The notes beneath the pieces are model-generated. The model saw only the letters and a list, made by a program, of their open reading frames with translations, was not told the DNA's origin and did not search any database. A program made the translations under genes and the position numbers. Positions 411 to 18,474 of a stretch of DNA of 64,000 nucleotides are shown one piece after another (the stretch's first letter is position 1; every line of letters begins with the position of its first letter). The DNA is taken from assembly GCF_000382045.1 (NCBI RefSeq), contig NZ_KB907457.1, forward strand, positions 1-64,000. The letters are read 5' to 3'. This stretch comes from Variovorax atrisoli 110B (GTDB taxonomy: Bacteria; Pseudomonadota; Gammaproteobacteria; Burkholderiales; Burkholderiaceae_C).

Positions 411-436
411 AAATCAATTCTTCTACGAACCAGATT

Positions 437-503: not shown

Positions 504-554
504 TCACGACGAGCGGGACAGGCGTTGCAGGGGCTGAGGTTGAGATCAACCGTA

Positions 555-797: not shown

Positions 798-966
798 CTT
801 TCCTCCTATTGAATCAGCTGCTTCATTCCCGGCAATTTACCGCTCGACGCGCACCTCCTCCTGGGCCTAAGACGGGGCTACAGCAAGGTGCCGAGTGCTT
901 GCCGCCAGGCAAACGCCTACTAGAGGCCTGCCCGAACGTCGCGGCACAAAGTGGAAGAAGGCTGCG

Positions 967-1716
967 TTAGTTGTCGCCGGTTTCCGTCTCATCGGTGATG
1001 TCAAAGCTTGCGAATATGCAAGCATCCAGCATGCATGGGTAAATGTTGAGCGCGCGCGAGATCTGGTGCAAACAATCTTGCACGAATAGATATACCGCTT
1101 CATCAGTCAGCGAAGCACCTGAGGGAACGAAACTTGCACCAAACTCTTTGAGCTTCTTCAGGACCCGGCTGTCCAGCGGCACTTCGTAGCGGGACACTCC
1201 TAGCCACTGAATAAAGTTGCGCGACTGCTTCTGTCCCAAACCCGGGTATTTGCTCCCGAGCAGGTAATTGACTACTGCCTTTTCTTTGAGGATAGTTGGA
1301 TAGGTTCGAAGTGTCTCAAGGTGTATGAGAAGTACAGGCCACTCGCCCGCCTCGAGATTCTCCCAAATTGTCGCGAGGTTGCTCGCAATCGTAGGAGCCC
1401 GCCGGAGTCCCGCATTTGTCATTTCCGTCGTCAAGAATTCGCGCAGGGTCTTGGACTTCCGACATTTGGCAAGGTCTAGTGCGAGACTAGTTGAATTCAG
1501 GAATCGACTTACCGCCGACCTGGGTCCAGAGCGTTGCTGCGTAGTGACTTGACAGCCAACGAGCGCATGCCAGACGTTCTGCTCTGAGAGGTCGATTCCG
1601 ATACGCCGAACGTTCAGTTTGTAGCGACGACGAGGTAGGGACTTGCTCCTGTTGTCTCGTACTAATTGCTCCCACTTCGAGAGAGTGACCTCGTCGAACG
1701 TCCAGCTTGCGAGCAT
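967..1716 (-). CDS. HhH-GPD-type DNA glycosylase-like protein
   Basis: About 249 residues. The start at 1716 is chosen because AGGGAG precedes it; an in-frame start lies further upstream at 1773 without such a site. The C-terminal half carries a helix-hairpin-helix-like stretch, YPGLGQKQSRNFIQWLG (roughly residues 160-176), followed by EVPLDSRVLKKL. This matches the HhH-GPD layout, in which a hairpin contacts DNA and an Asp a few residues on assists glycosidic bond cleavage; the Asp here is in PLDSRV. The upstream WHALVGCQVTTQQR resembles the family's leading helices. A base-excision or modified-base-sensing role is inferred. It sits alone among unrelated cargo genes, with no partner nuclease beside it. 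Confidence 0.7.
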   Translation of the reverse strand: MLASWTFDEVTLSKWEQLVRDNRSKSLPRRRYKLNVRRIGIDLSEQNVWHALVGCQVTTQQRSGPRSAVSRFLNSTSLALDLAKCRKSKTLREFLTTEMTNAGLRRAPTIASNLATIWENLEAGEWPVLLIHLETLRTYPTILKEKAVVNYLLGSKYPGLGQKQSRNFIQWLGVSRYEVPLDSRVLKKLKEFGASFVPSGASLTDEAVYLFVQDCLHQISRALNIYPCMLDACIFASFDITDETETGDN

Positions 1717-1810
1717 GTGTAACTCCCTTTGATACCTGATATCGCGCACGCGGCTGACTCCGCACAAGGCCAAGTAGTCCTAGCGAGCGCCTCTTGGGGC
1801 CCGAGCACGC

Positions 1811-1838
1811 GGATGTCGGCGTATGGCCGCATTCTGCC
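1811..1838 (+). repeat. copy of the cargo-region intergenic repeat
   Basis: A single unit beginning GGATGTCGGCGTATGGCCGC and ending ATTCTGCC. It lies just downstream of the stop codon of the minus-strand gene ending at 1847 and matches the shared GAATGNCGGNTCTGGCCG core in most positions. Confidence 0.6.
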
Positions 1839-1846
1839 TGCCGGCC

Positions 1847-2107
1847 TCATTCCCTGAACGCGACCTTTTGAGCGCGTAGGTCCACAAGCAAGACCGTCGA
1901 CCCGTCAAGCTCGACGCCCCTGTGTACCGACGTGAAGACGGCGGACCAGTGGACCGGCGTCTTTCCCTCACGCTCGCTCAGCACAGGATCAGGCTGGACG
2001 TCCAGGAGCGAACCCTCCATTCCGCTGGAGTTTGCGAACTCCACGGCGAGCGCTTTTGCCTGCGAGGCCGCCTCATCCCGAGAGAGGTGCCGAATGAAAT
2101 TGCTCAT
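1847..2107 (-). CDS. small hypothetical protein
   Basis: 86 residues, starting MSNFIRHLSRDEAASQAKAL. An amphipathic N-terminal helix is followed by a predicted beta-rich part (VHWSAVFTSVHRGVELDGST) ending in VLLVDLRAQKVAFRE. The order of helix, then strands with a conserved-looking W and D, is common in small immunity-type proteins, but I do not recognise a family. It lies between two repeat-containing gaps, on the same strand as its neighbours. No membrane segment or metal site is visible. Confidence 0.6.
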   Translation of the reverse strand: MSNFIRHLSRDEAASQAKALAVEFANSSGMEGSLLDVQPDPVLSEREGKTPVHWSAVFTSVHRGVELDGSTVLLVDLRAQKVAFRE

Positions 2108-2133
2108 GAGCTTTGAAACTGCGGGGTCGCGGT

Positions 2134-2160
2134 GAAGGTCGGCTTCTGGCCGACCAGTGT
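2134..2160 (+). repeat. copy of the cargo-region intergenic repeat, with perfect hairpin
   Basis: The unit GAAGGTCGGCTTCTGGCCGA plus ccagtgt contains a perfect 7-bp inverted repeat (GGTCGGC, loop of five, GCCGACC). It follows the stop codon of the acetyltransferase gene, where a small hairpin could form in RNA or single-stranded DNA. Confidence 0.7.
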
Positions 2161-2182
2161 CGAAGCACTGCCAGCTGAATTT

Positions 2183-2686
2183 CTATGGAGCGAGGATTGC
2201 CCATCGCTCGTGATCGCGCCAACGCCCGTTGATTTTCAAGTAGCGAGGTGAGTACCCTTCCTGCAGAAAGCCGCAGGCTTTTACAAGCGCGATTGAGGCG
2301 ACGTTGGTCGGCTGGATGTTGGCCTCCAACCGATGCAACTTGAGGTTTCGGAAAGCAAATCGAACTACTGCTTCTAATCCCTTCCGCATCAGGCCTTGTC
2401 TCTCGTGACCGGCGAAAACGTAGTAGCCGAGGTATCCACTTTGGAACGCGCCCCTGACGATATTGGTGATGTTGAAGACGCCGACGAGGCAATCGTCGGC
2501 ATGCCGGAAAACAAGAAATGCTGCGTTTTCATACGTAGACATTCTTTCTAGGTACGCTCGAAAATGTTCAGGCGTGGATGGCGGCAAGGTCCAAGGGCTG
2601 TGAAGGGCTCCACTCTTCTTAACCGAGGCAAGGAACTCGCGCTCGTCAGACGATTTAGGTGGCCGAAGATAAACAGGCTGCCGCAT
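2183..2686 (-). CDS. GNAT-family N-acetyltransferase (RimJ/RimL-like)
   Basis: 168 residues from the ATG at 2686; an in-frame upstream start at 2863 would read through repeat DNA and is rejected. The sequence begins MRQPVYLRPPKSSDEREFLA, the usual first strand and helix of RimJ/RimL-type acetyltransferases. It has GYYVFAGHERQGLMRKGLEA, the Q/RxxGxG/A-like acetyl-CoA loop, then LHRLEANIQPTNVASIALVK and CGFLQEG, which are hallmark C-terminal GNAT motifs. It probably transfers an acetyl group from acetyl-CoA to a protein N-terminus or small-molecule amine; the substrate cannot be told. It is a stand-alone cargo gene flanked by repeats. Confidence 0.88.
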   Translation of the reverse strand: MRQPVYLRPPKSSDEREFLASVKKSGALHSPWTLPPSTPEHFRAYLERMSTYENAAFLVFRHADDCLVGVFNITNIVRGAFQSGYLGYYVFAGHERQGLMRKGLEAVVRFAFRNLKLHRLEANIQPTNVASIALVKACGFLQEGYSPRYLKINGRWRDHERWAILAP

Positions 2687-2747
2687 TTCAGGTGTTAGCA
2701 ATATCTGAGGGAGGCCGCGACATCTTGCCCGATCGAACAAGCATCGC

Positions 2748-2811
2748 GAATGACCGGTCTTGGCCGCATTGTGCCGGCACGGCGAACGGCCGGTTCTGGC
2801 CGACTGTAGCC
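2748..2811 (+). repeat. two copies of the cargo-region intergenic repeat
   Basis: Units at 2748-2775 and 2784-2811 in a 241-bp non-coding gap. Outer segments GACCGG and CCGGTC are complementary, so the pair could fold as one long imperfect hairpin. Short direct repeats (TCGCGATGC-like on the minus strand) flank the pair. This is the fullest copy of the repeat in the window. Confidence 0.7.
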
Positions 2812-2927
2812 GGTCGCGACAGCATCGCGAACGGGCCCAAACCGGCTGTGCGGATTTCTCCAAACCTGACCCTCAAATTGGCGCGATGCAAGCGGACTTT
2901 GGCTGCGACCGGTGAAGACGGAGGGGC

Positions 2928-3371
2928 CTACGGTTGGTCTCCAGCCGTCGGGTCTCCCAGCCACCATCGCATGGTGCGCGCGGCAGCAATCTCGCCGTCA
3001 CTCAGGCCTTCAGTCGCTTGCACAGACGCGAGCGCATCGATTGCTGCCTGCTTCCCAAGCACTCGGGCGAAATACTGGGGAAGTTGCTCGACGCTGAGGT
3101 CGTAGCTTGGCAGAGACGCTCGCATGCATTCGACCAAGTCAAATTCCTTGGTCGGCTCTGCTGTATCGAGCAATCTGCCAGCCAGCTCTTGCCGCTGAGA
3201 CCGAAATTCTTTGGGCGCACTCTCGACGAAGACTGCGAACAGGCCTGCAAAAACCTCGGCGGGTGCACACCGGCTCAGCCGCGACCTGAGAAAAGCAAGT
3301 TGCTGGGGGTTGTCCGCTCCGAAGCGGTCTGCCGACTGGAGCACGGCAGCAAGAACCTCATCACGTTTCAT
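2928..3371 (-). CDS. hypothetical helical protein
   Basis: 147 residues, starting MKRDEVLAAVLQSADRFGAD. Predicted almost entirely helical, with many Leu/Ala heptad-like positions and a Trp-rich tail (RTMRWWLGD). No catalytic motif, signal peptide or membrane segment was seen, and no family is recognised. The start lies 45 bases after the stop of the next upstream gene, with one repeat unit in the gap. It may be translated with that gene or be an independent cassette. Confidence 0.6.
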   Translation of the reverse strand: MKRDEVLAAVLQSADRFGADNPQQLAFLRSRLSRCAPAEVFAGLFAVFVESAPKEFRSQRQELAGRLLDTAEPTKEFDLVECMRASLPSYDLSVEQLPQYFARVLGKQAAIDALASVQATEGLSDGEIAAARTMRWWLGDPTAGDQP

Positions 3372-3382
3372 TGGCCGCCCTT

Positions 3383-3410
3383 CAACTTCTGGTTATGGCC
3401 GAATTCCGTC
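3383..3410 (+). repeat. degenerate copy of the cargo-region intergenic repeat
   Basis: The unit CAACTTCTGGTTATGGCCGA plus attccgtc fills most of the 44-bp gap between two minus-strand genes. Only the TTCTGG / TGGCCGA core is conserved, so this is the weakest copy. Confidence 0.45.
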
Positions 3411-3415
3411 TTCGC

Positions 3416-3748
3416 CTACACATGTCCTAAGTCATCGAGCTGGCGAAGCTCCTCGGCCCCCTCTTCGGACGCCTGAAGGATGTTTCGCAGAATCTGCGGA
3501 GTGATTGACCGACCAGCCTCGCTGACAAGAGGTTGATGCCCATAACGCTCCAGAGTTGAAAGAAGCGCACGCGCTTTTGCAAAGACGTCTTCGGTTCGAT
3601 TGGAAAAAATCTCCTGGTCAAACACGGGCTTTCCGGTGGACAGACGGTCTCGCACGTCGAGGACTCCGAGGTTTGTGATACGCCGAACTTCGCCTACCAA
3701 CGAGGCGGACGGGTCACACGGAGCTGTAGAAATGGTCACACGGCTCAT
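3416..3748 (-). CDS. small protein with ribosomal L7/L12 C-terminal-like domain
   Basis: 110 residues. The segment VGEVRRITNLGVLDVRDRLS followed by a Gly-Lys-Pro turn (about residues 18-41) fits the L7/L12 C-terminal fold signature (K/R-x-[I/V]-R-x-x-T-G-L-G-L-x-x-[A/V]-[K/R]). The C-terminal third is helical and acidic. Stand-alone L7/L12-like domains occur in proteins of unknown function. It is far too divergent and too short at the N-terminus to be the ribosomal stalk protein, which needs an N-terminal dimerisation domain and a hinge. It is a same-strand cargo gene with a repeat upstream. Confidence 0.6.
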   Translation of the reverse strand: MSRVTISTAPCDPSASLVGEVRRITNLGVLDVRDRLSTGKPVFDQEIFSNRTEDVFAKARALLSTLERYGHQPLVSEAGRSITPQILRNILQASEEGAEELRQLDDLGHV

Positions 3749-3768
3749 CTTCGTTGGGAAGTGATAGG

Positions 3769-3796
3769 GAATGGCTGGTCTTGGCCGAGTCCTGCC
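3769..3796 (+). repeat. copy of the cargo-region intergenic repeat
   Basis: The unit GAATGGCTGGTCTTGGCCGA plus gtcctgcc lies between the stop of the gene at 3844 and the start of the gene at 3748. It closely matches the unit at 2748. Confidence 0.65.
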
Positions 3797-3843
3797 ACAT
3801 CAGTGCTCAGGTATAAAGCGTGCCCGCAGTCAGCGCCGCGTGA

Positions 3844-4710
3844 CTATGCAAACTGCGGGACCGATTTGTACACCGCTTCGCATACGCACTTGGCGGCCTC
3901 TGTCGAGATGAGACTCCTGTTCCAAACCAGAACCTGTCGCAGCGAGTAATCGAGTGCCCCGTCGTCGTCAGTCCTAAACAGAAACAAGACGGCGTGGACG
4001 GTAGCCCTGAAATGCTTGAAGCGCGCCGCAGCAGCTTGAATATGCTTCGGGTAGGCAGGCTTCGGCTCCTGGAACAGGCCAAAGATTTCGCGTCTGTAAT
4101 GTTTAGGGACCTCGGAATCCCCATAAGTCGCCAACATGCAGTCGTGTTGGTCGACCGTACCCAGCAAGAGGTCCGAGACGCATAGCACGACGATGTTGAA
4201 GGTTCCTTTTTCGATCGAGAGGAACTTGATGGGCTTACCTCCCGACTCGACTTTGCTAAGCAAAGTGCTCTGAGCGCGAAAGATCTCGGCTTGCTCGTCG
4301 GCACCATCTTTCATTACCTGATAGACGGTTGAAGCTGCGAGTTGCTTTGCGATATCTTCCGCTGTCTTTCGGTCCTGCTGCAGTAAGCGAAGCTCAAAAT
4401 AGACGGCTTCGCCCGATGGCAGAGTCATCTTGAAATCGATAGAACTGGTCTGTTCGGCTATCTGCTTCGCTTCGTAATCCAGAGGGAATCCCGCAAGCTC
4501 AAACTGATAGGCGAAAGTGACTTCCAACAGGAGTGCCAAGAAATTGCTCTTATCGTTTGATTTGGCAATGCCTTTGAGAAGCTGGCCATAGCGGCCAATC
4601 TTTTCAAGGTAGTGAAGCTTGGCGAGAAGGCTCTCAACATGTTCAGCCGGCTGCTCCGCGCCCCCGGACGCTTTGATCGCAGCTTCGATGACTTGGCGCT
4701 CAAGGGACAT
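3844..4710 (-). CDS. hypothetical protein with degenerate PD-(D/E)XK-like core
   Basis: 288 residues. An acidic helix LALLLEVTFAYQFELAGF (about 56-73) is followed by SSIDFKMTLPSG and AVYFELRLLQQD (about 89-112). This order of helix Glu, strand Asp and strand E-x-R/K copies the arrangement of PD-(D/E)XK nucleases, but the usual Lys is Arg, so it may be inactive or only structurally similar. The C-terminal half (FNIVVLCVSDLLLGTVDQHD onwards) is mixed alpha/beta and unrecognised. Its start overlaps the 3' end of a frameshifted small gene. No partner methylase or helicase is adjacent. Confidence 0.6.
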   Translation of the reverse strand: MSLERQVIEAAIKASGGAEQPAEHVESLLAKLHYLEKIGRYGQLLKGIAKSNDKSNFLALLLEVTFAYQFELAGFPLDYEAKQIAEQTSSIDFKMTLPSGEAVYFELRLLQQDRKTAEDIAKQLAASTVYQVMKDGADEQAEIFRAQSTLLSKVESGGKPIKFLSIEKGTFNIVVLCVSDLLLGTVDQHDCMLATYGDSEVPKHYRREIFGLFQEPKPAYPKHIQAAAARFKHFRATVHAVLFLFRTDDDGALDYSLRQVLVWNRSLISTEAAKCVCEAVYKSVPQFA

Positions 4711-5036
4711 ATCGAGATTGTGGGTTAGTTTGGAGCGTCCGGTATCGGTCGATCATGCAGGTTGCAGGGTGATTCGACAAAAATATCTGGTCCTCACTAG
4801 AGATGAACACGGGCGAGACTTCAACAGGAATCACTCTCTTGTGGGCCAGAGTTCGCTCTCCGTCTGTCAACAGGTTCCATTCTTCCGTCGGGAAACTGCC
4901 TGAACACCACTTCATCAATGACCACCGCCTTAGGAAGTCCGAGCCGCTCTTTTTCCGCGGAGAGCTTGGCAAACCGCTCCGCCAGGCGCCGCTTGAACTC
5001 AGGCGTCTGCATCAACCGAAGCACCGATCGGGCCAT
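4700..5036 (-). pseudogene. small ORF interrupted by a frameshift, next to the second tniQ
   Basis: From an ATG at 5036 with AGGGA upstream, the frame reads MARSVLRLMQTPEFKRRLAE and continues through AVVIDEVVFRQFPDG, then stops at 4821 after a low-complexity tail. The next frame, entered at about 4888, stays open and looks coding (NLLTDGERTLAHKRVIPVEV, then SPVFISSEDQIFLSNHPATC) to a stop at 4700. Joining both parts gives a protein of about 111 residues. This fits a one-base indel at a TTTCCC run, or less likely a programmed shift. Read unshifted, the product is 71 residues. No family is recognised; the position right after the transposition genes suggests an accessory role. Confidence 0.5.
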
Positions 5037-5064
5037 AATGGTCTTCCCTGTAACTGCGATTTCG

Positions 5065-5925
5065 CTAGCTTGAACGCTCGTGCTTGGGCTTCCAGGCAAC
5101 ACCAGATGGACTAAAGGATTTTGAATCATTGAGAAGGATATATGGGCCTTCGCGTTGATATCTTGGCCCGCTATCTATTGAGGCTTGAGTCGCCAATGCT
5201 TGCCTCGCCCCATCCGCAGTCAAATGGTCTGCACGCATCGGCAGCGCCCCCATCCTTGCGAGTCGTTTCAAGTTCGATAGAGGTTTCTCCGCCTGATTAT
5301 CTATACGCACTACGCCCTGACGGAGAGCGGCCAGCGTAGCTCGCCCATTTTTCAACAGCATCCAATCCCATTCGGACAGGGGCAAGTCATGAAGAGCAAC
5401 CGCCTTCGCAGCTACCAACGCCCCTTCACACCATTGACATTTACTCAAATACGCGACACCTGATTTTTTTATCCCTGCGCAGACCATGTCGAAAGGCAGG
5501 ACAACAGGTCGCCGGCAATGCGGGCAAGCGTCTTCCAGCAAACAATGATGAAGTGGGCAGAAGCGCCAAGGAATGAAACGGCAATGAATCTCAAAGCAAC
5601 TCTCACGTCGTGTCGCCAGACAGCGCGGGCAAAACCGAGAGCGCGGCCATCCCTCTCGAGTCGTAAGCAACAGGCTGGGACCTATCGTCCCGAGGCCTTT
5701 GAGACGACCGAAAACATTGACGGCAAACGAAAACTGCTTTGATACACCACAGTGCGCGAGGACTCTTCGTCCGGCGCCCGAAGTGATTGCCAAGTCGAAA
5801 TCGCGAACATCAGGAAGGTCCAGATGAGCCAGGAAGGCAACGACGGTCTCACCTTGCGAAAGCGCGGCGCGGGTCACCCAAGAAGCAGGGGACTCGAACG
5901 GAAGGGGCTCCGGCAAGCCAATCAT
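5065..5925 (-). CDS. TniQ-family target-selection protein, second copy (TniE-like position)
   Basis: 286 residues from the ATG at 5925, which lies 16 bases after the stop of the first tniQ; a more upstream in-frame start (6036) would overlap it by 95 bases. The N-terminus MIGLPEPLPFESPASWVTRA is the typical TniQ opening. It is followed near residues 95-145 by a Cys/His zinc-finger cluster (FCPRC, CFEIHC, FCPLHHC, CPHC). TniQ proteins link the TnsC ATPase to a chosen target. The sequence differs strongly from the first TniQ, so the two probably recognise different targets or act as a hetero-pair. It is the last intact gene of the tns operon. Confidence 0.85.
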   Translation of the reverse strand: MIGLPEPLPFESPASWVTRAALSQGETVVAFLAHLDLPDVRDFDLAITSGAGRRVLAHCGVSKQFSFAVNVFGRLKGLGTIGPSLLLTTREGWPRSRFCPRCLATRRESCFEIHCRFIPWRFCPLHHCLLEDACPHCRRPVVLPFDMVCAGIKKSGVAYLSKCQWCEGALVAAKAVALHDLPLSEWDWMLLKNGRATLAALRQGVVRIDNQAEKPLSNLKRLARMGALPMRADHLTADGARQALATQASIDSGPRYQREGPYILLNDSKSFSPSGVAWKPKHERSS

Positions 5926-5941
5926 GCCGTGCGGCAGCTGC

Positions 5942-6943
5942 TTAGCCTTCAACACGATCAAAGAGCTCCAGTTGCCCTTTGGCAGGCCTACCGCCGCGCC
6001 TCGGACCATGTCGAAGAGGATCCGATGCCCCGCCATCCAGCATTTTCAACAGCTGTCGAGCGGTCTCTTGATCGGCCGCTTCGACACCCTGTTTCGCCAG
6101 CCGCAACAAGCCGGGCTCGTAAACCAGCAGGCGCAACGTCTGGATTTCTTCGCTGAGTTGCCCAAGCATCGAGCCCACGCGAGCCAAGCCTCGCTCGACG
6201 ATCACGGCCATCTCGTCCGGACTTGGTACTTCCACAGCGCGCGCCGAAGACATCCGCTCTCCGGGCCTGCTCAGCACACCAAAGGCATGGATCAGACGGG
6301 ATGCACCATCAGGACTGATGTGATTGAGCCAGCTTGGCAGCGCGCAAGTACGCACTCCTGCGACCACTGCCGCGCTGTTGCGCTCCAGGCGGCCCTTCAT
6401 GGCGCTGCACCAAGCCAGAATCCGGGCTGAGGGCCTGGCCGATGCCGCGGAGCGCCGAAGATATCGCCCGCAACAGCAAATTTCTACGGCGGGACGCTGC
6501 CATGACAAGGCGATCCCACAATGCGGGCACCGGTCTATCAGCATCGTCTGGTGGACTGGGCATGCAGGAGCAGCTGCGACCTCCCATTCCGCCTTGCAGG
6601 ACATGCTTTCCTGCAAGCACTCCGGGCACACCTGAGCATGTTTGACTCTCAGCGAAGCGACGGAACCCCAGTCCCAACCAAGAAAGGAGTATCGTCTTCG
6701 TCGATCCACATGCCGCCGGTACTTCAGGCGTGTTATCAACCACTCTGGCGAAACGCCAGCCAGGAAAGCGAATGCTTCCGCGTCACGGGTCGTCATCCAG
6801 CGAATCGACTGCGCGCCCGCGTAGTTGGCAAGTTCAGAAAGCGTTACCCCGTTGGCATGGGAACACCTCAGAAGAAAGCCCAGACCGGATTCGCCTTCGC
6901 GGGCTGAAACGGCCACCGGAAGGGGTTGGAGGTCATTCAGCAT
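5942..6943 (-). CDS. TniQ-family target-selection protein (TniD-like position)
   Basis: 333 residues from the ATG at 6943, which overlaps the tnsC stop by 11 bases; an upstream in-frame start at 7039 would overlap tnsC by more than 100 bases. MLNDLQPLPVAVSAREGESG opens the TniQ domain. A zinc-finger set near residues 106-160 includes VCPECLQE, CPVH and CPHCGIAL, then CCCGRYL. The C-terminal third is helical and lacks the long DNA-binding extension of Tn7 TnsD, so site-specific attTn7-style targeting of glmS is not expected. It works with TnsC and TnsB in target choice. Confidence 0.88.
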   Translation of the reverse strand: MLNDLQPLPVAVSAREGESGLGFLLRCSHANGVTLSELANYAGAQSIRWMTTRDAEAFAFLAGVSPEWLITRLKYRRHVDRRRRYSFLGWDWGSVASLRVKHAQVCPECLQESMSCKAEWEVAAAPACPVHQTMLIDRCPHCGIALSWQRPAVEICCCGRYLRRSAASARPSARILAWCSAMKGRLERNSAAVVAGVRTCALPSWLNHISPDGASRLIHAFGVLSRPGERMSSARAVEVPSPDEMAVIVERGLARVGSMLGQLSEEIQTLRLLVYEPGLLRLAKQGVEAADQETARQLLKMLDGGASDPLRHGPRRGGRPAKGQLELFDRVEG

Positions 6944-7889
6944 ACGGATTTCCCAAGCTGGCATGCTTCCCGTAGACGCGATCGAAGGCCGTCCGCAAAT
7001 GCTCCGCACCAATCTGAGGAAAACCGCCATCAGCGGCAATCAATACTGCTTCCGTCACTAGACGCTTGAACGCGCGCAGGTTGCCAGCAGTAGCTTTCTG
7101 CATCCGCACGGCTTCGTCCTTCTCGGCAAGCAAGCTGAGATCAATTCCCTTGCTCTGTCTCACGAACGCCCTGATGAAACCTTGCCACATGGATCCGGCC
7201 TCAAATGACTGGAGCAAGTGACGCGCGCTGATCCGGCTTGCAAGATGGAGATCCACGCCTGTTAGATCAGCAAGTTCCTCTCCCCCAAAGAGGGCAAGTC
7301 CCAAAGGCACTTCGTCCATCAACTCCCGAAGGCAGTCGGTGACGTTGTTACCTTCCTCGGTACGGATACGCATCCGAGTCTGCAGCAGCAGGTGGTGAGC
7401 CTCATCGACAAACAGCAGACGTGTTCCTTTTTGCTTGAGCGCGTCAATCAATACGTTGCGTTTGACGCCCAGCGTATGCGCGCTGACATTGGGAAAGGGA
7501 TAACGGATCTGGCGCAGCAAACTGCCGACGAGCTGGCCGACCGTCGGCCGCTTGGAAAGCCGAACCGCCAAAGCGCCATGCCCGGTCTCAAATAGGTTGG
7601 AACTCGGCAAGGAGCTACGGAAATACCGGATCAAGGCCGTCTTTCCCGAGCCTGTGGGACCACTCACGACAACTCCCTGTTGTGTCGAGAATTCGCGACT
7701 GAGCTGAAACACGCGATCGCAGCTAGCCAAGATGTCCTTGAAGCCGGGGTGACTGACCATGATGCGATCAACCGGTATCGCGGTCGCCAGGGCGTACGAC
7801 GAGTAGGTGAAAAGCCGCCTTGCGATGGTCTGCCGCTCTTCTTCGTCCGGCCAATCGACATCACTTTCGTCGTTGCCGCGCGCGCTCAT
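6933..7889 (-). CDS. tnsC: TnsC-like AAA+ ATPase of a Tn7-like transposon
   Basis: 318 residues. Walker A is GPTGSGKT (77-84) and Walker B is RLLFVDEAH (around 156-164), with arginine-rich sensor regions further on (HLASRISARHLL). TnsC/TniB proteins polymerise on target DNA and pass the signal from TniQ to the transposase. The start overlaps the tnsB stop by 4 bases and the end overlaps tniQ by 11, so the genes are translationally coupled. The length is typical for the shorter Tn6022/Tn5053-like TniB group and well short of Tn7 TnsC (about 555). Confidence 0.92.
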   Translation of the reverse strand: MSARGNDESDVDWPDEEERQTIARRLFTYSSYALATAIPVDRIMVSHPGFKDILASCDRVFQLSREFSTQQGVVVSGPTGSGKTALIRYFRSSLPSSNLFETGHGALAVRLSKRPTVGQLVGSLLRQIRYPFPNVSAHTLGVKRNVLIDALKQKGTRLLFVDEAHHLLLQTRMRIRTEEGNNVTDCLRELMDEVPLGLALFGGEELADLTGVDLHLASRISARHLLQSFEAGSMWQGFIRAFVRQSKGIDLSLLAEKDEAVRMQKATAGNLRAFKRLVTEAVLIAADGGFPQIGAEHLRTAFDRVYGKHASLGNPYAE

Positions 7890-9847
7890 CGGGCCTCCAG
7901 GTCGAAAGCCTCGAACTCCGGGATCTCGCTTTCTGTCGTGATGTTCTCCACGGGGGGAGGCGCTTGCTGCGGTTCGGTGGGGCAGGATTTCGTGGGTTGC
8001 GGAAGTCCCACTGAAGTGACCCCTGCTGCGCGAGCAGCCAACAACGAACTCTTTCGGCTCTTAGGCCGGGTCGCATCCATCCAATGATCGTGGAGCCGCA
8101 TTCGCGCCTCCCAAAGATCGTCCACCGTCCCTTTGGTACGTAGAACCTCGCGCTCGAATCGCCGAATCGTCCGGTGCTGATTCAACGAGAGCCCGTTCGC
8201 ATAATCGGTGCGGCGAGACGGACTTTTCACCCATTCGGTCAAGCGCTTGGGATGCTGGATGTACAGATGGCTCATGTCGTCGGGATCCATCTTGCACAGC
8301 GTCTTGAAGGGCTTGTCGAATTCGTTCCGCCACGGCTTCAACTCATCCGACCCGTAAGGAACACCTTCGAAAATCACACCGCCTTGAGAGACCGTGTAGT
8401 GCTTCGAATGTCCAGTAATGAGACGCAAGTTCTCCATGCTTCCTGGGTAGACAGCCGGCGGACAGCGCTCCAACCCTTGTTGGAAGAGATCCAAGGGCCT
8501 CGCCAGCTTTTGCTCGTTGACTTTCAGGGGATGCACCTCTGCGACAAACATCGTGAGCCCTTTGACAAGGTCATCGAAGCTGATCAGGGCATCCTTGTAA
8601 GGATCGATTCGAGCCACATTGGCGATCTTCCGATGCACCCGTCCACGCGCCAGCGTCAGGAAGTCGAGCTCGCCGAAAAAACGTTCGACGTGTGGCTTCA
8701 ACCATGGAGTACGTACCCTGCAATAGGTCACGTCGATCCCGAGCTCCCAGGACATTCGCTTGAAGGCGTTGGAATGAAACTCAAGCCCGTTGTCCAGGAC
8801 CCATTCATCCGCCAGTCCGTAGGACAGCCAGGGATGCGTCAAGCCAAGTCCTTTCGTCAGCTCGTCTTTCGGCAGGACCGAACTACGCAGCACACCTGAA
8901 ACGCTGCTCACGCCGGGGCCATAAAAGCTGAGATAGAAGCCGAGCACGTAGTACGAATAGGCATCGAGCGCAACTGTCAACAGTGGTCGTCCAAGCGGCA
9001 ACCCCGTGCGAGGGCAAACGACAACGTAGTTCAGCGGGGTGTGGTCCACTTCGACTCGCTGAAGGGGATACGCAGCACCAGCACCATCGATGCTCGTTCG
9101 ACAGACCATCCGCGCTCGCCCATCGCCGTCGCGCGCTGCAATACGGCGATATGCGTCGATGTCTTTGACCCGCCGTGAAAGGGTCGTGAAACTGACCGTC
9201 GCTTCTGCTTCCTGCAGCTGCCCATTGCCCACAGCGACCTTCAACTCCCGCCTCAGGCAGTCGTGCGCATGTCGCAGCGAGTGACGATCTCGGGTGAGAT
9301 AGTTTGCCTCGAGCGTTTCCACGATGAGTTTCTCCACAATCCCGGGGAGGCGACGCTGACTGACTCGAGCCTTGGTCAGGCTCACCAGTGCAACGGGATT
9401 CAGCTCTGCCTTTTCATACGCGCGGATCCAGCGCATGACCGCTGACGCTGAAGGCGGGGAAGCGTCTGCGCTGGACTCTGCAACGTGGCGAATGACCCTG
9501 GCGATGCGGGAGCGCTGACCTCGGCTCACGTGCGCGGCCCGAATGGCGTGAACATAGCGAAGTCGATACTCGATTTGCTGCTGCCACTCCAGCTTGAGGG
9601 CTGACACATCGATCAGTGCAGGCCATCTTTTTTCTTCCGCCTGGCTTGTATCGGCGCTCGCCGGATCAAAGACGACCTTCAGGCGGCCACTCCAGACCCG
9701 TCGAACCAACTCGGCCTCACGCATGTTCTGAACTCGACGCGTCAGCACCTCCTCCAGCTGGACAACCCCGTCGGGCAGCACCCGGACGAGTTCCAGGCTA
9801 CGTTCACCACAACGCAGTGCCAAACCAACTCTCAAGGCGAAATTCAT
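7886..9847 (-). CDS. tnsB: TnsB-like DDE transposase (RNase H fold)
   Basis: 653 residues. The catalytic triad is visible: D268 in QRVEVDHTPL, D352 in EWVLDNGLEF and E388 in WLKPHVERFFGEL, with 35 residues between the last two, as expected for this family. Helix-turn-helix DNA-binding regions precede the core (about residues 100-230) and a Mu-type C-terminal barrel follows. It binds the transposon ends, joins 3' ends to target DNA and should be recruited by TnsC. The start overlaps the tnsA stop by 44 bases. All catalytic residues are intact, so activity is expected. Confidence 0.95.
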   Translation of the reverse strand: MNFALRVGLALRCGERSLELVRVLPDGVVQLEEVLTRRVQNMREAELVRRVWSGRLKVVFDPASADTSQAEEKRWPALIDVSALKLEWQQQIEYRLRYVHAIRAAHVSRGQRSRIARVIRHVAESSADASPPSASAVMRWIRAYEKAELNPVALVSLTKARVSQRRLPGIVEKLIVETLEANYLTRDRHSLRHAHDCLRRELKVAVGNGQLQEAEATVSFTTLSRRVKDIDAYRRIAARDGDGRARMVCRTSIDGAGAAYPLQRVEVDHTPLNYVVVCPRTGLPLGRPLLTVALDAYSYYVLGFYLSFYGPGVSSVSGVLRSSVLPKDELTKGLGLTHPWLSYGLADEWVLDNGLEFHSNAFKRMSWELGIDVTYCRVRTPWLKPHVERFFGELDFLTLARGRVHRKIANVARIDPYKDALISFDDLVKGLTMFVAEVHPLKVNEQKLARPLDLFQQGLERCPPAVYPGSMENLRLITGHSKHYTVSQGGVIFEGVPYGSDELKPWRNEFDKPFKTLCKMDPDDMSHLYIQHPKRLTEWVKSPSRRTDYANGLSLNQHRTIRRFEREVLRTKGTVDDLWEARMRLHDHWMDATRPKSRKSSLLAARAAGVTSVGLPQPTKSCPTEPQQAPPPVENITTESEIPEFEAFDLEAR

Positions 9848-10484
9848 GTGAAGCCTCCAAAGGATTCAATGGAAAGACAAGACTGGAGTCGTCTATGGCA
9901 AGCGACCTGGAAACCCGCATCGCACGCGCTGCGATCAGATGCAGGACATCGGCGCGCGATGCGGCGCTTCGTTTCGCCAGCGACCCGATTGCCAAGCCGC
10001 GTGGACATTCGCCCACGCAGGCTAGGAGACGAAGACGAGTCGCCGGGTCGATTCCGGATTTGCGGTAACGCAGAACAAGGGCCGCTCGCTCGTGCGCCTT
10101 GGCACGCCGAATCGCCCCCTCGTCCAGTACCAGGAAATCTGCTTGGTGTGTTTTCAGTTCGGCACGTGCATAGTCAAAAGCGCCTCGATAACGCTCAACG
10201 CGCGCTCCCAGCTTGACCTCGACGACGACACGGCTTCCGTCGGCGTACGTCGCCAGGAAATCCGGGGTGAACCGAGAGCCTGAGGGTTGTTTGAGCTGGA
10301 AAGGCTGATGCCGCAGTCGAACGATGCTCGGGCAGAGCGCGGCGCGCAGTACGAAGTCACGTTCAAGGGAAGACTCGCATTCCACCGGTTCTTCGAAGAT
10401 GCCCGGCAAATTCAGCCGGCGCACGGTTCGAATAGGCGAACGCGAGACCACCCTGCGCGCGGGCGCAGGGAAATCAAAATCCAT
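9804..10484 (-). CDS. tnsA: TnsA-like PD-(D/E)XK endonuclease
   Basis: 226 residues from the ATG at 10484; an in-frame start at 10598 would add a basic, low-similarity leader running through a hairpin and is rejected. The nuclease core is complete: CESSLERDFVLRAAL (E41), RFTPDF (D75) and VVVEVKLG (E89-x-K91). A helical C-terminal domain follows (about 130-226). TnsA cuts the 5' ends of the element so that, with TnsB, it moves by cut-and-paste; its presence separates this element from Tn5053/Tn402-type transposons, which lack it. First of the coupled tnsA-tnsB-tnsC-tniQ-tniQ series. Confidence 0.93.
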   Translation of the reverse strand: MDFDFPAPARRVVSRSPIRTVRRLNLPGIFEEPVECESSLERDFVLRAALCPSIVRLRHQPFQLKQPSGSRFTPDFLATYADGSRVVVEVKLGARVERYRGAFDYARAELKTHQADFLVLDEGAIRRAKAHERAALVLRYRKSGIDPATRLRLLACVGECPRGLAIGSLAKRSAASRADVLHLIAARAMRVSRSLAIDDSSLVFPLNPLEASHEFRLESWFGTALW

Positions 10485-10560
10485 GGAGTTCTCCAGGCAA
10501 AAGAAGACCATCTCGACCTTCAAAAAAGTCGAGGCGATTCTTGACAGGGGAGCTTCGCCG

Positions 10561-10639
10561 GAAGAAACTGTGGTTGCCGACCGTTGTAGTTTCTTCAACG
10601 GGGGAAGCGCCGCCAGCCGAAAGGTTGAGCGGCGTTTTT
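10561..10639. other. two stem-loops between the HTH gene and tnsA
   Basis: A perfect 9-bp inverted repeat (GAAGAAACT at 10561-10569, AGTTTCTTC at 10588-10596) is followed by a G+C stem (CGCCGC at 10608-10613, GCGGCG at 10629-10634) with TTTTT on its plus-strand side. The second looks like an intrinsic terminator for plus-strand transcripts, that is, antisense to the tns operon. The first could be a regulatory site or attenuator in the tns leader. Roles are inferred. Confidence 0.45.
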
Positions 10640-10641
10640 CT

Positions 10642-10929
10642 TTACATGGCTACCTCCTCGTTTTTGCGGGAGCCGCGGGGTTCTTCGGACTCAGTCCGTG
10701 TGTGGGCCGCACGCTCAGCTGACAGTTCGAGCATGTCAGCGATCTCTTCAGTCCAAGCAAAAATTCCTCGCCGTCCCGGAAGATTGAACGCCAGGAATGG
10801 GAGCAGCCCGCGGCCGTGCGCCGCATTGAGCGAGGTTGTCGATCGATAGTGCAGCACCTTGCAAAGGGCGACAGCATCCATCACAGGGCCAAATTCAGAC
10901 CACAGTCGCTGTTTTAAGCTCGTATGCAT
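10642..10929 (-). CDS. small AlpA/MerR-like helix-turn-helix protein upstream of tnsA
   Basis: 95 residues. The core VALCKVLHYRSTTSLNAAHG followed by RGLLPFLAFNLPGRRGIFAW has the layout of AlpA/excisionase-type DNA-binding proteins: a choice helix, a recognition helix containing RGLLP, and a wing ending in a GRRG turn and an aromatic residue. A charged tail follows. It precedes tnsA on the same strand with two stem-loops between, so it is probably the first gene of the transposition operon. It could repress that operon or assist end binding, by analogy with small regulators of mobile elements. No known symbol fits. Confidence 0.65.
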   Translation of the reverse strand: MHTSLKQRLWSEFGPVMDAVALCKVLHYRSTTSLNAAHGRGLLPFLAFNLPGRRGIFAWTEEIADMLELSAERAAHTRTESEEPRGSRKNEEVAM

Positions 10930-11543: not shown

Positions 11544-13274
11544 ATGGCGCGCATCCGACGGCTGGAAATCCGCAACTTCCGCTCGATCAAGTCGCTCGAT
11601 TGGGCGCCTTCACCCGGCATCAATTGCCTCATTGGTCCAGGCGACAGTGGCAAGTCGACCATTCTTGACGCCATTGATCTATGTTTGGGCACGCGGCGCA
11701 GCATTGCGATCGCCGACACTGACTTCTATGGGCTTGTCGTCACCGAGCCCATCGTAATCACAGTGACGCTGGGTGGCCTGTCCGACGAGCTATTAAGTCT
11801 GGAGGCCTACGGCGAGTTTCTGCGAGGGCATGACGCAATGACGGGACAGATCGAGCCGGAACCAAGGGCCGACATCGAGACTGCATTGACGCTACGCCTC
11901 GAGATCGGCGCTGACCTGGAACCGTCGTGGCTGCTGTACTCGGAGAGGGCGCAAGAGCAAGGTCTGGAACGTGGGCTCGCCTGGAAACATCGCGCCGCGC
12001 TGGCGCCGGCGCGCATCGGCAACTACGCCAGCGCTCACCTGTCCTGGAGCCGCAGCTCTGTGCTCAACCGGCTGACTGATGAACGCCCCGATCTCGGCGC
12101 CGAGCTGGCTCGTGCAGCACGGGACGCGAGGACAGGGTTCGGCAACCAGGCGGGAGCCCAACTGGCCGAGACCCTCCAGGTCGTGACGCGTACCGCCACC
12201 ACCCTGGGCGTGCCCGTCGGCCAGGCCCAGGCGATGCTAGACGCGCACGCGGTTTCCATCGGAGATGGTGCGATCGCGCTGCACAGCGAGATCGGCATCC
12301 CACTGCGCTCGCTGGGTACGGGATCTGCACGCCTGCTGATGGCGGGGCTGCAGCGAGAGGCCGCTCAAGCGGCGACCATCGCCCTCGTGGACGAAGTCGA
12401 GTTTGGTCTGGAGCCCCATCGGCTCAAGCGCCTGCTCGATTCCCTGGGAGCCAAGGACGCAAACCTGCCCCTGCAGGCATTCATGACGACGCACTCACCG
12501 GTTGCGCTGCGCGAGCTCTCCGGCAACCAGCTGTTCATCGTCCGGCGCGAGGGTGATGGCCACGTTGTGCGCCCTACGGGCGCGACCGATCAGGTGCAAA
12601 GCATCCTGCGCACAGACCCAGAGGCTTTCCTTGCGAAGTCGATCCTGGTCTGCGAAGGGGCCAGCGAGATCGGACTGGCACGAGGCCTCGACCAATACGG
12701 CGTGGAGGATCACAACCGGACGTCGTTCTTCGCGCTCGGCGGCGCGTACGTCAACGCAGGCGGCAGCACACCGGACCAGTGTCTGGAGAAGGCGCTCGTC
12801 TTGCGCCGGCTAGGCTACAACGTGACTGCCTTCATTGATGCAGACAAACCGCCGACATCGGCGCTCCTTACGACGCTTGCCACCGAGGGCATCGGCCTCC
12901 TCACTTGGCGGGCGGGCCGCGCGTTGGAGGATGAACTGTTCATCAGCATGGCGGACGCAGCGATAGATTCCCTGCTCGGCTACGCTATCGAACGCATTGG
13001 CCGAGATGATGTGGCCGAGCATATTCGGTCCAAATCCGAAGGTCAGCAGACCCTCGAAGCCATCGAGGCTGAGAGAGCAGCGCTGGGCAGCTATTCGCCA
13101 GCGACACGAGAGCTCCTGGGGCGTGCGGCGCGGGTCAGCAAGAGCGGCTGGTTTAAGTCCGTTTCTGCCTATCAGCACGTCGGCCGCAGGATCGTGGGAC
13201 CGCAGTGCAACAGCTCGGAGGCCGGATTCCTCGACGTGCTGAACCGGCTGTGGGCATGGACCCATGCCGCCTGA
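11544..13274 (+). CDS. gajA: Gabija anti-phage protein GajA (OLD-family ATPase/TOPRIM nuclease)
   Basis: 576 residues. N-terminal ABC-type ATPase: RIRRLEIRNFRSIKSL, Walker A GPGDSGKS (31-38), signature-like GTGSARLL (258-265), Walker B IALVDEVEFGLEPHR (279-293) and H-loop TTHSP (315-319). A C-terminal TOPRIM domain has ILVCEGASE (E371) and AFIDADK (D432, D434), the metal ligands for nicking. In Gabija, GajA forms a nuclease tetramer controlled by nucleotide levels and works with GajB. GGGAGG lies just before the ATG and the end overlaps gajB by 11 bases, so the two genes are coupled. The length matches known GajA (about 580). Confidence 0.9.
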   Translation: MARIRRLEIRNFRSIKSLDWAPSPGINCLIGPGDSGKSTILDAIDLCLGTRRSIAIADTDFYGLVVTEPIVITVTLGGLSDELLSLEAYGEFLRGHDAMTGQIEPEPRADIETALTLRLEIGADLEPSWLLYSERAQEQGLERGLAWKHRAALAPARIGNYASAHLSWSRSSVLNRLTDERPDLGAELARAARDARTGFGNQAGAQLAETLQVVTRTATTLGVPVGQAQAMLDAHAVSIGDGAIALHSEIGIPLRSLGTGSARLLMAGLQREAAQAATIALVDEVEFGLEPHRLKRLLDSLGAKDANLPLQAFMTTHSPVALRELSGNQLFIVRREGDGHVVRPTGATDQVQSILRTDPEAFLAKSILVCEGASEIGLARGLDQYGVEDHNRTSFFALGGAYVNAGGSTPDQCLEKALVLRRLGYNVTAFIDADKPPTSALLTTLATEGIGLLTWRAGRALEDELFISMADAAIDSLLGYAIERIGRDDVAEHIRSKSEGQQTLEAIEAERAALGSYSPATRELLGRAARVSKSGWFKSVSAYQHVGRRIVGPQCNSSEAGFLDVLNRLWAWTHAA

Positions 13275-14691
13275 GCTCGACCTGACCGCGGTCGCTCGCG
13301 GGTCGGTTACAGCCCCGGCCGGTTGCGGCAAGACGCAGCTCATCGCCGATACCTTAGCGGCGCATACCGGCAGCAAGCCCATCCTGGTCTTGACCCACAC
13401 CAACGCCGGTGTCGCGGCATTGCGGGCTCGCATGGCCAGAGCGGCCATCCCCAGCTCGGCCTATCGGATCTCGACGATCGACGGCTTCGCGATGCGACTC
13501 GCTGGGAAGTTTCCGCTGCGTAGTGGCCTTCCTGCCCAAACGCTGGAACTCGCCAATCCGGGCCAGGACTATCCGGCGATTCGAGAAGCAGCGGCCACCC
13601 TGCTGCAGGCTGGACACATCAACGCGCCGCTCCGGGCTACCTACGCAAGGCTCCTAGTCGATGAATACCAGGACTGCAATGCGGCGCAACATCGCCTTGT
13701 AGCCTGGGCTGCGCAGACGCTGCCGACGTGCGTGCTCGGTGATCCCATGCAGGCAATCTTCGGGTTCGGCGGCAATCCCCTGGTCAACTGGCAAGTCGAT
13801 GTCGAGGCGCAGTTTCCCTCAATCGGCATGCTGCAGACACCTTGGCGCTGGCGGCTGGCTGGCACTGAGCAGTTGGGGCAATGGCTGCTGAACGCGCGGG
13901 CGCTGCTTCAAGCCGGACAGCCCGTAGACCTGCGGGGAGCGCCGCCTGAAGTGCAATGGGTGCAACTGGCCGCGGCGACGGCCGAAGAGCAGCGTCGGGC
14001 CGCCGCAAGGACGCGCGGGCGCAACGCGCAGGACAGCGTGCTCATCATCGGCGACGCGATGAATGTTCGCGGGCGCTACCAGCTGACCAGCCAGACTCCT
14101 GGCGCGACGGTTGTGGAGCGCGTCGATCTCGTGGAACTCATCCAGTTCGCACGAGTCTTTGACCCTTCTGGCGCCAATCCGCTGAGGCAAGTGGTCGAGT
14201 TTGCCGCGAGCCTAATGACTGGCGTGGGGGCGGCCGGGCTAATGGAGCGCGTGCGCGTTCTGCAGCATGGCAGGCCTCGCAATCCACCGACGCCGATCGA
14301 GGCTGCAGCCTTGGCGTTTGCTCAAGGTCCCAGCGTCGCGGAGGCTTCTCGTTTGCTGCAGGCCTTCGCTCGGCAGCCGGGCACTCATGTGTATCGCCCC
14401 GAAGTGCTGCGCTGCTGCCAAGCTGCCATGCAGGTCGCCGCTCGTGGGACTGGCACGTTTCACGCAGCAGCACTTGAAGCGCGCGAGCGTCAACGTCATA
14501 TGAGCCGGCCGGTTGCTCGACGAGCAGTTGGCAGCACCTTGTTGCTCAAAGGACTGGAGGCCGATGTTGCGGTTGTACTTGAGCCACAAGCAATGACGGC
14601 TTCACACCTGTATGTTGCGTTGACACGAGGCGCACGGCAAATCGTGGTTTGCTCGCCCACCAGCATGCTTATGCCACGCCCGGGCACTTAA
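13264..14691 (+). CDS. gajB: Gabija anti-phage protein GajB (UvrD-like helicase)
   Basis: 475 residues. Superfamily 1 helicase motifs are in order: motif I APAGCGKT (17-24), Ia VLTHTNAGV, II LLVDEYQDC (131-137), III LGDPMQAIFGF, IV-like LQTPWRW, V TLLLKGLEADVAVVLEP and VI HLYVALTRGARQIVV. The protein is shorter than housekeeping UvrD (about 720) because inserted subdomains 1B/2B are reduced, which is typical of GajB. It is thought to sense or process DNA termini and activate GajA. It is coupled to gajA by overlap and is the only other gene of the operon. Confidence 0.9.
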   Translation: MPPELDLTAVARGSVTAPAGCGKTQLIADTLAAHTGSKPILVLTHTNAGVAALRARMARAAIPSSAYRISTIDGFAMRLAGKFPLRSGLPAQTLELANPGQDYPAIREAAATLLQAGHINAPLRATYARLLVDEYQDCNAAQHRLVAWAAQTLPTCVLGDPMQAIFGFGGNPLVNWQVDVEAQFPSIGMLQTPWRWRLAGTEQLGQWLLNARALLQAGQPVDLRGAPPEVQWVQLAAATAEEQRRAAARTRGRNAQDSVLIIGDAMNVRGRYQLTSQTPGATVVERVDLVELIQFARVFDPSGANPLRQVVEFAASLMTGVGAAGLMERVRVLQHGRPRNPPTPIEAAALAFAQGPSVAEASRLLQAFARQPGTHVYRPEVLRCCQAAMQVAARGTGTFHAAALEARERQRHMSRPVARRAVGSTLLLKGLEADVAVVLEPQAMTASHLYVALTRGARQIVVCSPTSMLMPRPGT

Positions 14692-14719
14692 AGCCGCGGG
14701 CACCTTTTTCGCACTGGAT

Positions 14720-15889
14720 CTATTCGGCGTCGGTGTCGTCCCATTCCCCGATGTCATCGGACTCTTCATCGTCCCAGCCGCCGAAGGGCCTGATCAAGCC
14801 GGATTTGTAGAGCCCCGCTTCATAAGTGCGCGTCTTCAGACCCTCCAGAGCATTCCGCATGCCGATCACAGTACCAATGATATGCAGCTTGCCCCCGTCC
14901 CCACGCTTTAACGTCTTGACCTGGACGAGGCTACCGATGTCTTGTGCGCCACGCAGCCAACCAGTCCACGCCGAATTGGAGGTTGCCTCTCGGCGGTCGA
15001 AGTCGAAAGTGACCTCCACGCGGTTGGCTGATCGCCGCGCGCGGACAGCCTGCATGTTCGCTGGCGCTTGCAGAATGTCTTCGAAGATGTGGCGCCCCTG
15101 AACATAGATAAGGTCGCCCGGCAGCACGGCCGCCTTCAAGGGCCCACGATCCAGATCGTCGGAAATGTTCCTGACGGCCGTACAGCTGAGCACCTCATAG
15201 AGCATCGCCTTGGCGTACCGGTAGAGTGCCATGCGATGCGATCCGTCGTAGATGTAGCCGCCGTCTGGCGCTGTCGCCGTGATGTCGCCGTCCTCGTTGC
15301 ACACGCCGGCGCGCTCGGCCTGAACTCGCCCCGGCAAGCCGGCAAGATCGACACCGTTTGCACGTGCAAGCTCGGCTAGGCGCAGGTGATTGAAGTAGTT
15401 CCACTGATCGGACTGCAGCTGCGTGCCCATCTGGATCGCTTGTGCGTCGTCTCGCCCAGCCTGTTCTTCCCAACGCCGCTTGAAGTCGCGCAGCCGAGCT
15501 GCGGTCAGTGAGATCTGTAGATCGCGCGTCGAGTGGGCTTCACCGTGGTGCTCTGCGCACAATACGGCCAGGTTCCCCGCCGTGTGGTCATGAGTCTTCG
15601 CCCAAGGCTCGATGTGGTGGACGATGACTGGCCGACCTGGAATGCGGCAGACACAGCAGGCCCAACGGTTTGCATACAGTACCTGATTCAGGATATCGGA
15701 TGGGATCGCGGGCCTGGCCCCGGCGCGCAGATTTCTCATGACCGTCTCGGAAATGCCCAGCGCGCTCAGTTCCGCATTGGTCGCGGTTTGGAGCTTGGCA
15801 GCAGTCCAACCGCGCGCGCGCAAGTGAGCAGCCTGGTCGCTTGGCATGCCCCGCGCGACCAGCGCAATCTCGGTCCGGTTTCCATTCAT
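14720..15889 (-). CDS. HNH endonuclease-domain protein
   Basis: 389 residues from the ATG at 15889; an upstream in-frame start at 16279 would run 260 bases into the divergent gene. The N-terminal 60 residues (LRARGWTAAKLQTATNAELS, then ALGISETVMRNL) look like a helix-hairpin-helix or SAM-like DNA-binding unit. The HNH motif follows: RWACCVCR (C78-C81), VIVHHIEPWAK (H91-H92), AGNLAVLC (N106, C111) and EHHGEAH (H114-H119), complete with zinc ligands. The C-terminal 250 residues contain IYDGSHRMALYRYAK and an acidic tail, family unknown. It is divergent from a HEPN-type gene across 129 bases, suggesting a paired defence module. Confidence 0.8.
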   Translation of the reverse strand: MNGNRTEIALVARGMPSDQAAHLRARGWTAAKLQTATNAELSALGISETVMRNLRAGARPAIPSDILNQVLYANRWACCVCRIPGRPVIVHHIEPWAKTHDHTAGNLAVLCAEHHGEAHSTRDLQISLTAARLRDFKRRWEEQAGRDDAQAIQMGTQLQSDQWNYFNHLRLAELARANGVDLAGLPGRVQAERAGVCNEDGDITATAPDGGYIYDGSHRMALYRYAKAMLYEVLSCTAVRNISDDLDRGPLKAAVLPGDLIYVQGRHIFEDILQAPANMQAVRARRSANRVEVTFDFDRREATSNSAWTGWLRGAQDIGSLVQVKTLKRGDGGKLHIIGTVIGMRNALEGLKTRTYEAGLYKSGLIRPFGGWDDEESDDIGEWDDTDAE

Positions 15890-18473: not shown

Positions 18474-18474
18474 G

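Follow-up and report, generated by a model that had tools for sequence, protein, structure and literature searches.

How a Tn7-like transposon with two short TniQ proteins selects its insertion site is the question raised by positions 5065-10929 of a 64,000-nucleotide stretch of the Variovorax atrisoli 110B genome (contig NZ_KB907457.1, positions 1 to 64,000 of the forward strand; hereafter the window). A sequence-only reading had described there a transposition module with the gene order HTH (helix-turn-helix), tnsA, tnsB, tnsC, tniQ, tniQ, whose target choice would be explained neither by attTn7, nor by comM, nor by RNA guidance, or which would use its two TniQ for two pathways. Judged by its sequence, the module belongs to a complete-looking Tn7-like cut-and-paste transposon of a Burkholderiales family with tnsABC and two short TniQ genes. 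We consider it probable that this family homes to heat-shock promoters bearing a CIRCE operator (controlling inverted repeat of chaperone expression), those of rpoH and groESL, and inserts upstream of them, other branches having moved to gntR, pckG and recA.

All genes of the module lie on the minus strand. The first (10642-10929) is an open reading frame (ORF) for a small protein of 95 amino acids (aa), whose HTH character was called in the earlier reading; it has zero Pfam matches, even at E=1, and another Tn7-like locus in this genome, on contig C17, has a 60-aa stretch 55% identical to it. Then come tnsA, coding for the endonuclease (9804-10598; NCBIfam TnsA-like, 1.3e-12; Pfam Tn7_TnsA-like_N, 0.0012), the transposase gene tnsB (7886-9847), tnsC, coding for a TniB-like AAA+ protein (6933-7889; Pfam TniB, 1.2e-15), tniQ1 (5942-6955; 337 aa; Pfam TniQ, 7.3e-18) and tniQ2 (5065-5925; 286 aa from its likely start; Pfam TniQ, 1.8e-06 for this form). 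The gene order first proposed is borne out by ORFs at each place and by family models for TnsA, TnsC and both TniQ, and neither TniQ is long like TnsD. In NCBIfam, TnsB has weak IS481 and IS3 matches only; a profile built from its relatives retrieves the TnsB of type I-F3 CRISPR-associated transposons (CASTs) as the closest solved structures in the PDB (3.7e-95 and 7.4e-78). D268, D352 and E388, which we take to be the DDE triad, are invariant in all six aligned sequences (window included), in agreement with the claim that catalytic residues are intact.

The ORF list places the start of tniQ1 further upstream, at 7039, and leaves tniQ2 open to 6036; the long tniQ2 frame (5065-6036) matches Pfam TniQ at 3.5e-06. 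We favor the ATG at 5925 as the tniQ2 start because most relatives align with the longer ORF only from about residue 38 onward, with a few alignments beginning earlier. The overlap of the genes, also claimed earlier, holds for tnsA/tnsB (44 bp), tnsB/tnsC (4 bp) and tnsC/tniQ1 (23 bp) and not for the two tniQ genes, which do not overlap when tniQ2 is read from 5925. The AlphaFold2 model of TniQ1 (predicted local distance difference test score, pLDDT, 89) aligns by VIA-align with the full-length I-F TniQ 6v9p (Z 14.5, root-mean-square deviation 5.1, 258 residues aligned), which points to an adaptor-type fold. The TniQ2 model is weak (pLDDT 66.6), and its best VIA-align score is Z 5.1, to TnsD.

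The module is part of a far larger element, which runs past the contig edge at window position 1 and has its left end on another contig. The right end (23197-23243, minus strand; reversed-pattern control, 0 matches) reads inward TGTCGGTTTTCACTGAG..., carries two TnsB-type sites and is followed by the target-site duplication ATAGA (23244-23248). Only from 23.2 kb onward does the window have its chromosomal flank in common with Variovorax sp. E3 (L053; L, G and C number our loci, genomes and contigs, the genome of the window being G000). Searching this genome with the right-end sequence gave a partner on contig C26 at 32774 that differs at one position and is likewise flanked by ATAGA (32769-32773), and a further match on C1 with two mismatches; the general end pattern has exactly two matches in the 7.5 Mb, namely the two ends. 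From the end pattern and the ATAGA flanks, the element would measure at least 30.7 kb, made up of C26:32774-40292, window 1-23243 and an assembly gap between them. An alternative right end near 11.1 kb was rejected: homology to L052 stops at 11162, in the promoter region of the HTH gene, and the true end is at 23243.

When the flanks were joined and searched in the genus, 97 of 101 genomes matched at least in part. The empty site is seen in 20 congeneric genomes that match all 353 bp at 87-97% identity, one of which was aligned gap-free at 96.6%; identity is 72-80% in additional genomes, and in some the two halves stand apart, with other DNA between them. The comparison with genomes lacking the element, which the sequence-only reading had called for, hence yields both ends, the 5-bp duplication and the empty site. 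The insertion lies between an Mpo1-like gene (Pfam 3.2e-17) and rpoH, the chromosomal target gene outside the element (sigma-32; 23297-24265, plus strand; NCBIfam TIGR02392, 9.6e-117), 25 bp from a CIRCE operator (TTAGCACTC-N9-GAGTGCTAA, 23269-23295) that fits with 0 mismatches what we take to be the consensus of this HrcA operator. Distance to the stop codon of the Mpo1-like gene was discarded as the determinant of the site, insertions ranging from inside the gene (E3) to about 33 nt past it (V. beijingensis). This position upstream of rpoH agrees with the view that the target is not set through attTn7, comM or RNA guidance; no Cas family was found among the window proteins scanned, a set that excludes a few small ORFs as well as the assembly gap and the 7.5 kb of the element's left part on C26.

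A scan of genome contigs returned 80 loci. The analysis of TniQ and ends covered 39 loci (the window, L052-L083, L093, L111 and L035-L038) and leaves out 46 of the 80. Two TniQ ORFs of more than 200 aa occur in 34 of the 39; one was called in L065, L069, L071, L073 and L093, and tblastn adds a second TniQ match in L065 and, weakly, in L071. At the level of sequence, paired TniQ is a trait of the family. Right ends of the TGTCG type have TnsB-type sites at +10 and +31 and left ends mostly at +10, +88 and +119; the ends of one clade start with TGCGGAA instead. By eye, a conserved ATCAANNACTTNG-like motif lies about 50-60 bp inside most left ends (for example L133 from 1501), and near 23170 at the window right end. 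Perfect 5-bp duplications flank 13 of the 15 elements with both ends located, and in the 12 chromosomal end pairs with a duplication the right-type end faces the target gene. The Hydrogenophaga element (L055) has 73.8 kb between its ends. Members occur both on chromosomes and on plasmids (L035, and L036 with duplication GCTGG). In Comamonas testosteroni NFYY023, one member of 19.6 kb lies at groESL (L040 1355 to L041 1101, duplication CTAAT) and another on plasmid pNFYY023-1 (L035).

Read outward from the right ends, the sequences enter a few genes from their 5' side, and CIRCE is the common landmark of the rpoH cases. The site was located in 29 of the 39 members (window included), and 19 of these end 25-95 bp upstream of a CIRCE box. 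Seven are at rpoH (window, L052, L053, L055, L058, L061, L038), at distances of 25 (window), 64, 56, 48, 53, 59 and 60 bp, and twelve at groESL (L062, L065, L066, L068, L069, L071, L073, L075, L076, L077, L079, L081). GroES, GroEL, RpoH, PEPCK and RecA were assigned by family model in one example each and GntR in two, the rest by similarity or by eye. By pattern search, CIRCE occurs at exactly two loci in 34 of 40 genomes, at one in four and at three in two; the reversed pattern gave 0 matches, save a palindromic one in G218.

The prediction that unplaced members sit at CIRCE was checked at one or both boxes for 17 members, and an end was present in 12 and absent in five. For nine of these (L065, L066, L068, L071, L075, L076, L077, L079, L081) the groESL CIRCE is on the tns contig, 7-30 kb from tns, with the end 33-95 bp from CIRCE. 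L069 and L073 have ends at the groESL CIRCE and tns on another contig, and L038 (G218) has its end 60 bp from the rpoH CIRCE; 42.2 kb separate this end from the left one, and the duplication is CTCAG. Also at groESL, L062 lies 78 bp from CIRCE with the duplication ACACC. No end was found within 250 bp in 28 other CIRCE flanks (20 rpoH, 8 groESL), nine of which belong to the five misses and one of which is the groESL flank of the window's own genome. The end is partly duplicated in L068 (77 and 95 bp) and L066 (68 and 76 bp), and in L075 and L038 the tns genes are oriented oppositely within the element. Use of rpoH is seen in the window clade and in L038, which belong to separate TnsB branches. 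In Variovorax ZS18.2.2 both CIRCE sites are occupied, by a full element at groESL (G411:C3) and by a mini-element of 1.64 kb at rpoH (L183 5256-6897; duplication GTAGC; 47 bp from CIRCE). A decayed insert at the same rpoH site, with GTAGC flanks and, by eye, degenerate TGCCGG-type ends, was also seen in G453 (L220, 395-18700).

Could such insertions merely survive in roomy intergenic regions, without any site recognition? The Variovorax rpoH upstream region does hold other inserts without recognizable ends (L219, L221, L224), which such a loose promoter-region or hot-spot preference would accommodate. It seems very improbable to us: the same few genes recur in different genera, all 12 pairs mentioned above have the right-type end toward the gene, and each insertion would have a chance of about 7e-5 of landing no more than 100 bp from either of two CIRCE boxes (uniform model; related elements are not independent).

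CIRCE is the only feature that we see in common between the DNA upstream of rpoH and that upstream of groESL; by eye, the two regions have no other common motif. The promoters themselves differ, with a sigma-E-like GGAAC-N16-TCTAA at rpoH and CTTGAAA...GCCCTTAT at groESL, assigned from what we take to be the promoter consensus sequences. In the seven groESL members of one clade, the distance from CIRCE is 21-22 bp for a -35-like TTGAAA and 52-78 bp for the end; the groESL insertions checked in this way by script thus fall upstream of the -35-like box, so that the promoter stays intact. These observations bear on another explanation, in which the TniQ of each clade reads conserved DNA of one gene and CIRCE is a mere neighbor. 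Located members of a clade do for the most part use the same one of the two CIRCE genes, the gntR, pckG and recA sites have no CIRCE, and known Tn7-like elements are described with one conserved attachment gene each (PMC11406308). However, gene-specific attachment would require several branches to have settled independently on just the two genes of the genome that have CIRCE, and we regard it as unlikely.

Several observations weigh against homing to CIRCE-bearing promoters as we propose it. Ten of the 29 located members are at sites without CIRCE, namely upstream regions of gntR-type genes (L059, L060, L063, L070, L078), of pckG (L072, L082, L111) and of recA (L074), and a site on a plasmid (L036). 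Both CIRCE boxes are free of an end in L056, L067, L080 and L093, as is the only one found in L064; with L035, L037, L054, L057 and L083 these five make up the ten members whose site was not located. All six located chromosomal members of the window clade are at rpoH and none at groESL, while two other clades are at groESL only. The spacing between end and CIRCE varies from 25 to 95 bp, unlike the fixed spacing of Tn7. The end pattern is matched poorly at several ends (mismatches out of 26: L066, 8; L081, 7; L058, 5; L061, 4; L065, 4), L068 having 2 and L038 1. Two of the 15 end pairs, L059 and a 9.7-kb insert in G417, have no matching 5-bp flanks, and C26 and the window contig, which bear the two ends of the V. 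atrisoli element, are joined by inference only. Finally, pckG and gntR targets interleave among close relatives in the TniQ tree.

The clade preference for one CIRCE gene indicates that CIRCE alone cannot be the whole signal, and CIRCE as sole signal was rejected in view of the five misses; we infer from the sequences that CIRCE is part of what is recognized. As for the TniQ tree that the sequence-only reading had suggested, it follows the target clade by clade in some clades and fails to separate pckG from gntR, where TniQ sequence does not predict the target. Its labels predate the placing of L038 and most groESL cases, which stand in it without a target. Homologues occupy rpoH, groESL, gntR, pckG and recA sites and not one known site such as comM.

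A census was also made independently of tns genes. The right-end pattern had 29 matches in 22 of 399 genomes of the family (reversed pattern, 0), some of them genomes already met through the L loci. Their flanks were rpoH (2, one being the window), groES (3), pckG (8, two beside the same gene), gntR-type (8) and hemE (1, by eye), with 7 unplaced; five of the 29 right ends, the window among them, are at CIRCE. A TnsB match at 1e-40 is absent in 15 of 21 census genomes (own genome excluded), so that many ends come from elements that lack a transposase of their own or have one more distantly related.

In the mechanism that we propose, TnsB would pair the TGTCGG ends, and TnsA and TnsB would excise the element. 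TniQ1, predicted to fold like the I-F adaptor TniQ, would link TnsC to the target complex, and TniQ2 and/or an operator-bound protein would mark the CIRCE-bearing promoters of rpoH and groESL. Insertion would fall upstream of the promoter and leave the essential heat-shock gene with both promoter and operator; the safe site would be on the promoter side of the gene and not downstream of it. Other branches would have shifted to the upstream regions of gntR, pckG or recA. The second TniQ, the HTH protein and a host protein are candidates for an extra selector.

A special case of this mechanism makes host repressors the target selectors: HrcA at CIRCE, GntR-type regulators at their own promoters and LexA at recA would serve as beacons, the short TniQ1 and TniQ2 recognizing the bound operators by contacting the repressor. 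Such an arrangement would suit TniQs without a TnsD tail, the variable spacing and the predicted adaptor fold of TniQ1, which binds Cascade in I-F3. An operator-like palindrome was found by script at 3/3 gntR-A and 1/5 gntR-B census sites, and a LexA-like box by eye at the one recA site. However, HrcA alone leaves the preference for one CIRCE over the other unexplained, and the pckG sites share no palindrome (script). Neither TniQ matched HrcA, LexA or GntR, a missing match that excludes nothing. We put this version forward tentatively, as possible though doubtful; if true, the host regulator would play the part that Cascade plays in I-F3 CASTs.

The two TniQ proteins could also serve two pathways, one for chromosomal promoters and one for plasmids. 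CASTs are described with a two-pathway lifestyle (PMC11406308), and the family does have plasmid members, L035 and L036. Yet a plasmid-specific motif or enrichment is not shown, CIRCE was absent from the three plasmid records searched, and only one plasmid insertion has both ends mapped. We see this division of labor as a speculative possibility, less probable than its opposite.

Tn7 itself has TGT-type ends, a dense right and a dispersed left array of TnsB sites, a 5-bp duplication and a fixed orientation, with the right end facing the target gene, downstream of glmS. The window family resembles it in all of these except the glmS site. TnsA endonuclease, DDE TnsB, AAA+ TnsC and a TniQ-domain protein are present, the TGT...ACA ends carry several TnsB-type sites, and the preferred site is used in one orientation. 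The window element differs from Tn7/TnsD elements in that both TniQs are short, the spacing is looser and insertion is upstream of rpoH, not downstream of glmS through a long TnsD. Elements of the Tn5053/Tn402 type have TniABQR without TnsA, together with a resolvase and a res site; the presence of TnsA sets the window element apart from them. Type I-F3 CASTs (Tn6677, PseCAST) are close in TnsB profile and TniQ1 fold, but the window family has a second TniQ and targets promoter sides, not protospacers.

The sequence-only reading had likened the gene order to tniCABDE of Tn6022. Tn6022 (AbaR type) does share tnsABC and a short TniQ, but the likeness fails at tniE/orf3, which is TnsF, a zinc-finger and inactive tyrosine-recombinase protein, and not a TniQ (PMC10293859). 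Tn6022 has TnsF and TnsE and inserts into comM, whereas in the window the gene after tniQ1 is a second TniQ and the site is rpoH; TnsF and TnsE were not searched by model. Two TniQ genes are not rare, since Faure et al. 2023 counted 998 dual tniQ-tnsD loci (PMC10293859). These too have tandem TniQ genes, but one is usually longer than 400 aa, and both are below 340 aa in the window. Small TniQs have been proposed to signal an extra selector (PMC10293859), which the short TniQs here fit. For Tn7-like elements, the attachment sites named in PMC10293859, PMC11406308 and PMC8649781 are those in comM, those within or next to a tRNA gene, and those on the downstream side of a conserved gene. Our literature search, which left supplementary tables and subscription papers aside, found no Tn7-like element at rpoH, groESL or CIRCE. 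Dual TniQ and Tn7-like islands are already known; what is unusual is the rpoH/groESL/CIRCE attachment site, of which we found no description. A family inserting beside the operator of essential heat-shock genes would represent a new targeting logic and, were the operator or its repressor the signal, would offer an integration system that is compact, needs no CRISPR and has a 27-bp palindrome as its landmark. It would then become directly testable whether a host DNA-binding protein can act as target selector through TniQ. Such a family would also explain why an island recurs between rpoH and the Mpo1-like gene in several Variovorax genomes; in the window, this island has anti-phage cargo.

This cargo is a Gabija system, gajA (11544-13274) and gajB (13264-14691), both on the plus strand (PADLOC: GajA, 3e-233; GajB, 2.4e-195). 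Up to the mapped end (14692-23196) follow a weakly HNH-like protein, an M78 peptidase, a CoiA_N protein and unnamed genes; within 18475-20075, a small protein and the M78 peptidase match candidate-defence models more weakly than the Gabija pair does. Rfam and tRNA scans of the window gave no matches. On the other side of the module, tniQ2 is followed by a small ORF (4821-5129, minus strand) without Pfam match that has counterparts at the same place in L052 and L065. The left-side cargo (1-4710), which continues past the contig edge, holds a GNAT acetyltransferase and small genes with repeats of 28-33 nt. Repeats like GAATGNCCGGTCTTGGCCGCATTGTGCC lie between small genes, five in the window (432-3796), eight in L065 (1455-7387) and weaker ones in the C26 part; by eye, an integron attC core is not apparent in them. 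The second locus of the same genome, at G000:C17:34632-36030 (L042), has two TniQ matches (open frames of 550 and 373 aa) and a distant TnsB. The GNAT gene and its flank (2135-2777) are 94% identical in L065, which suggests cassette-like exchange.

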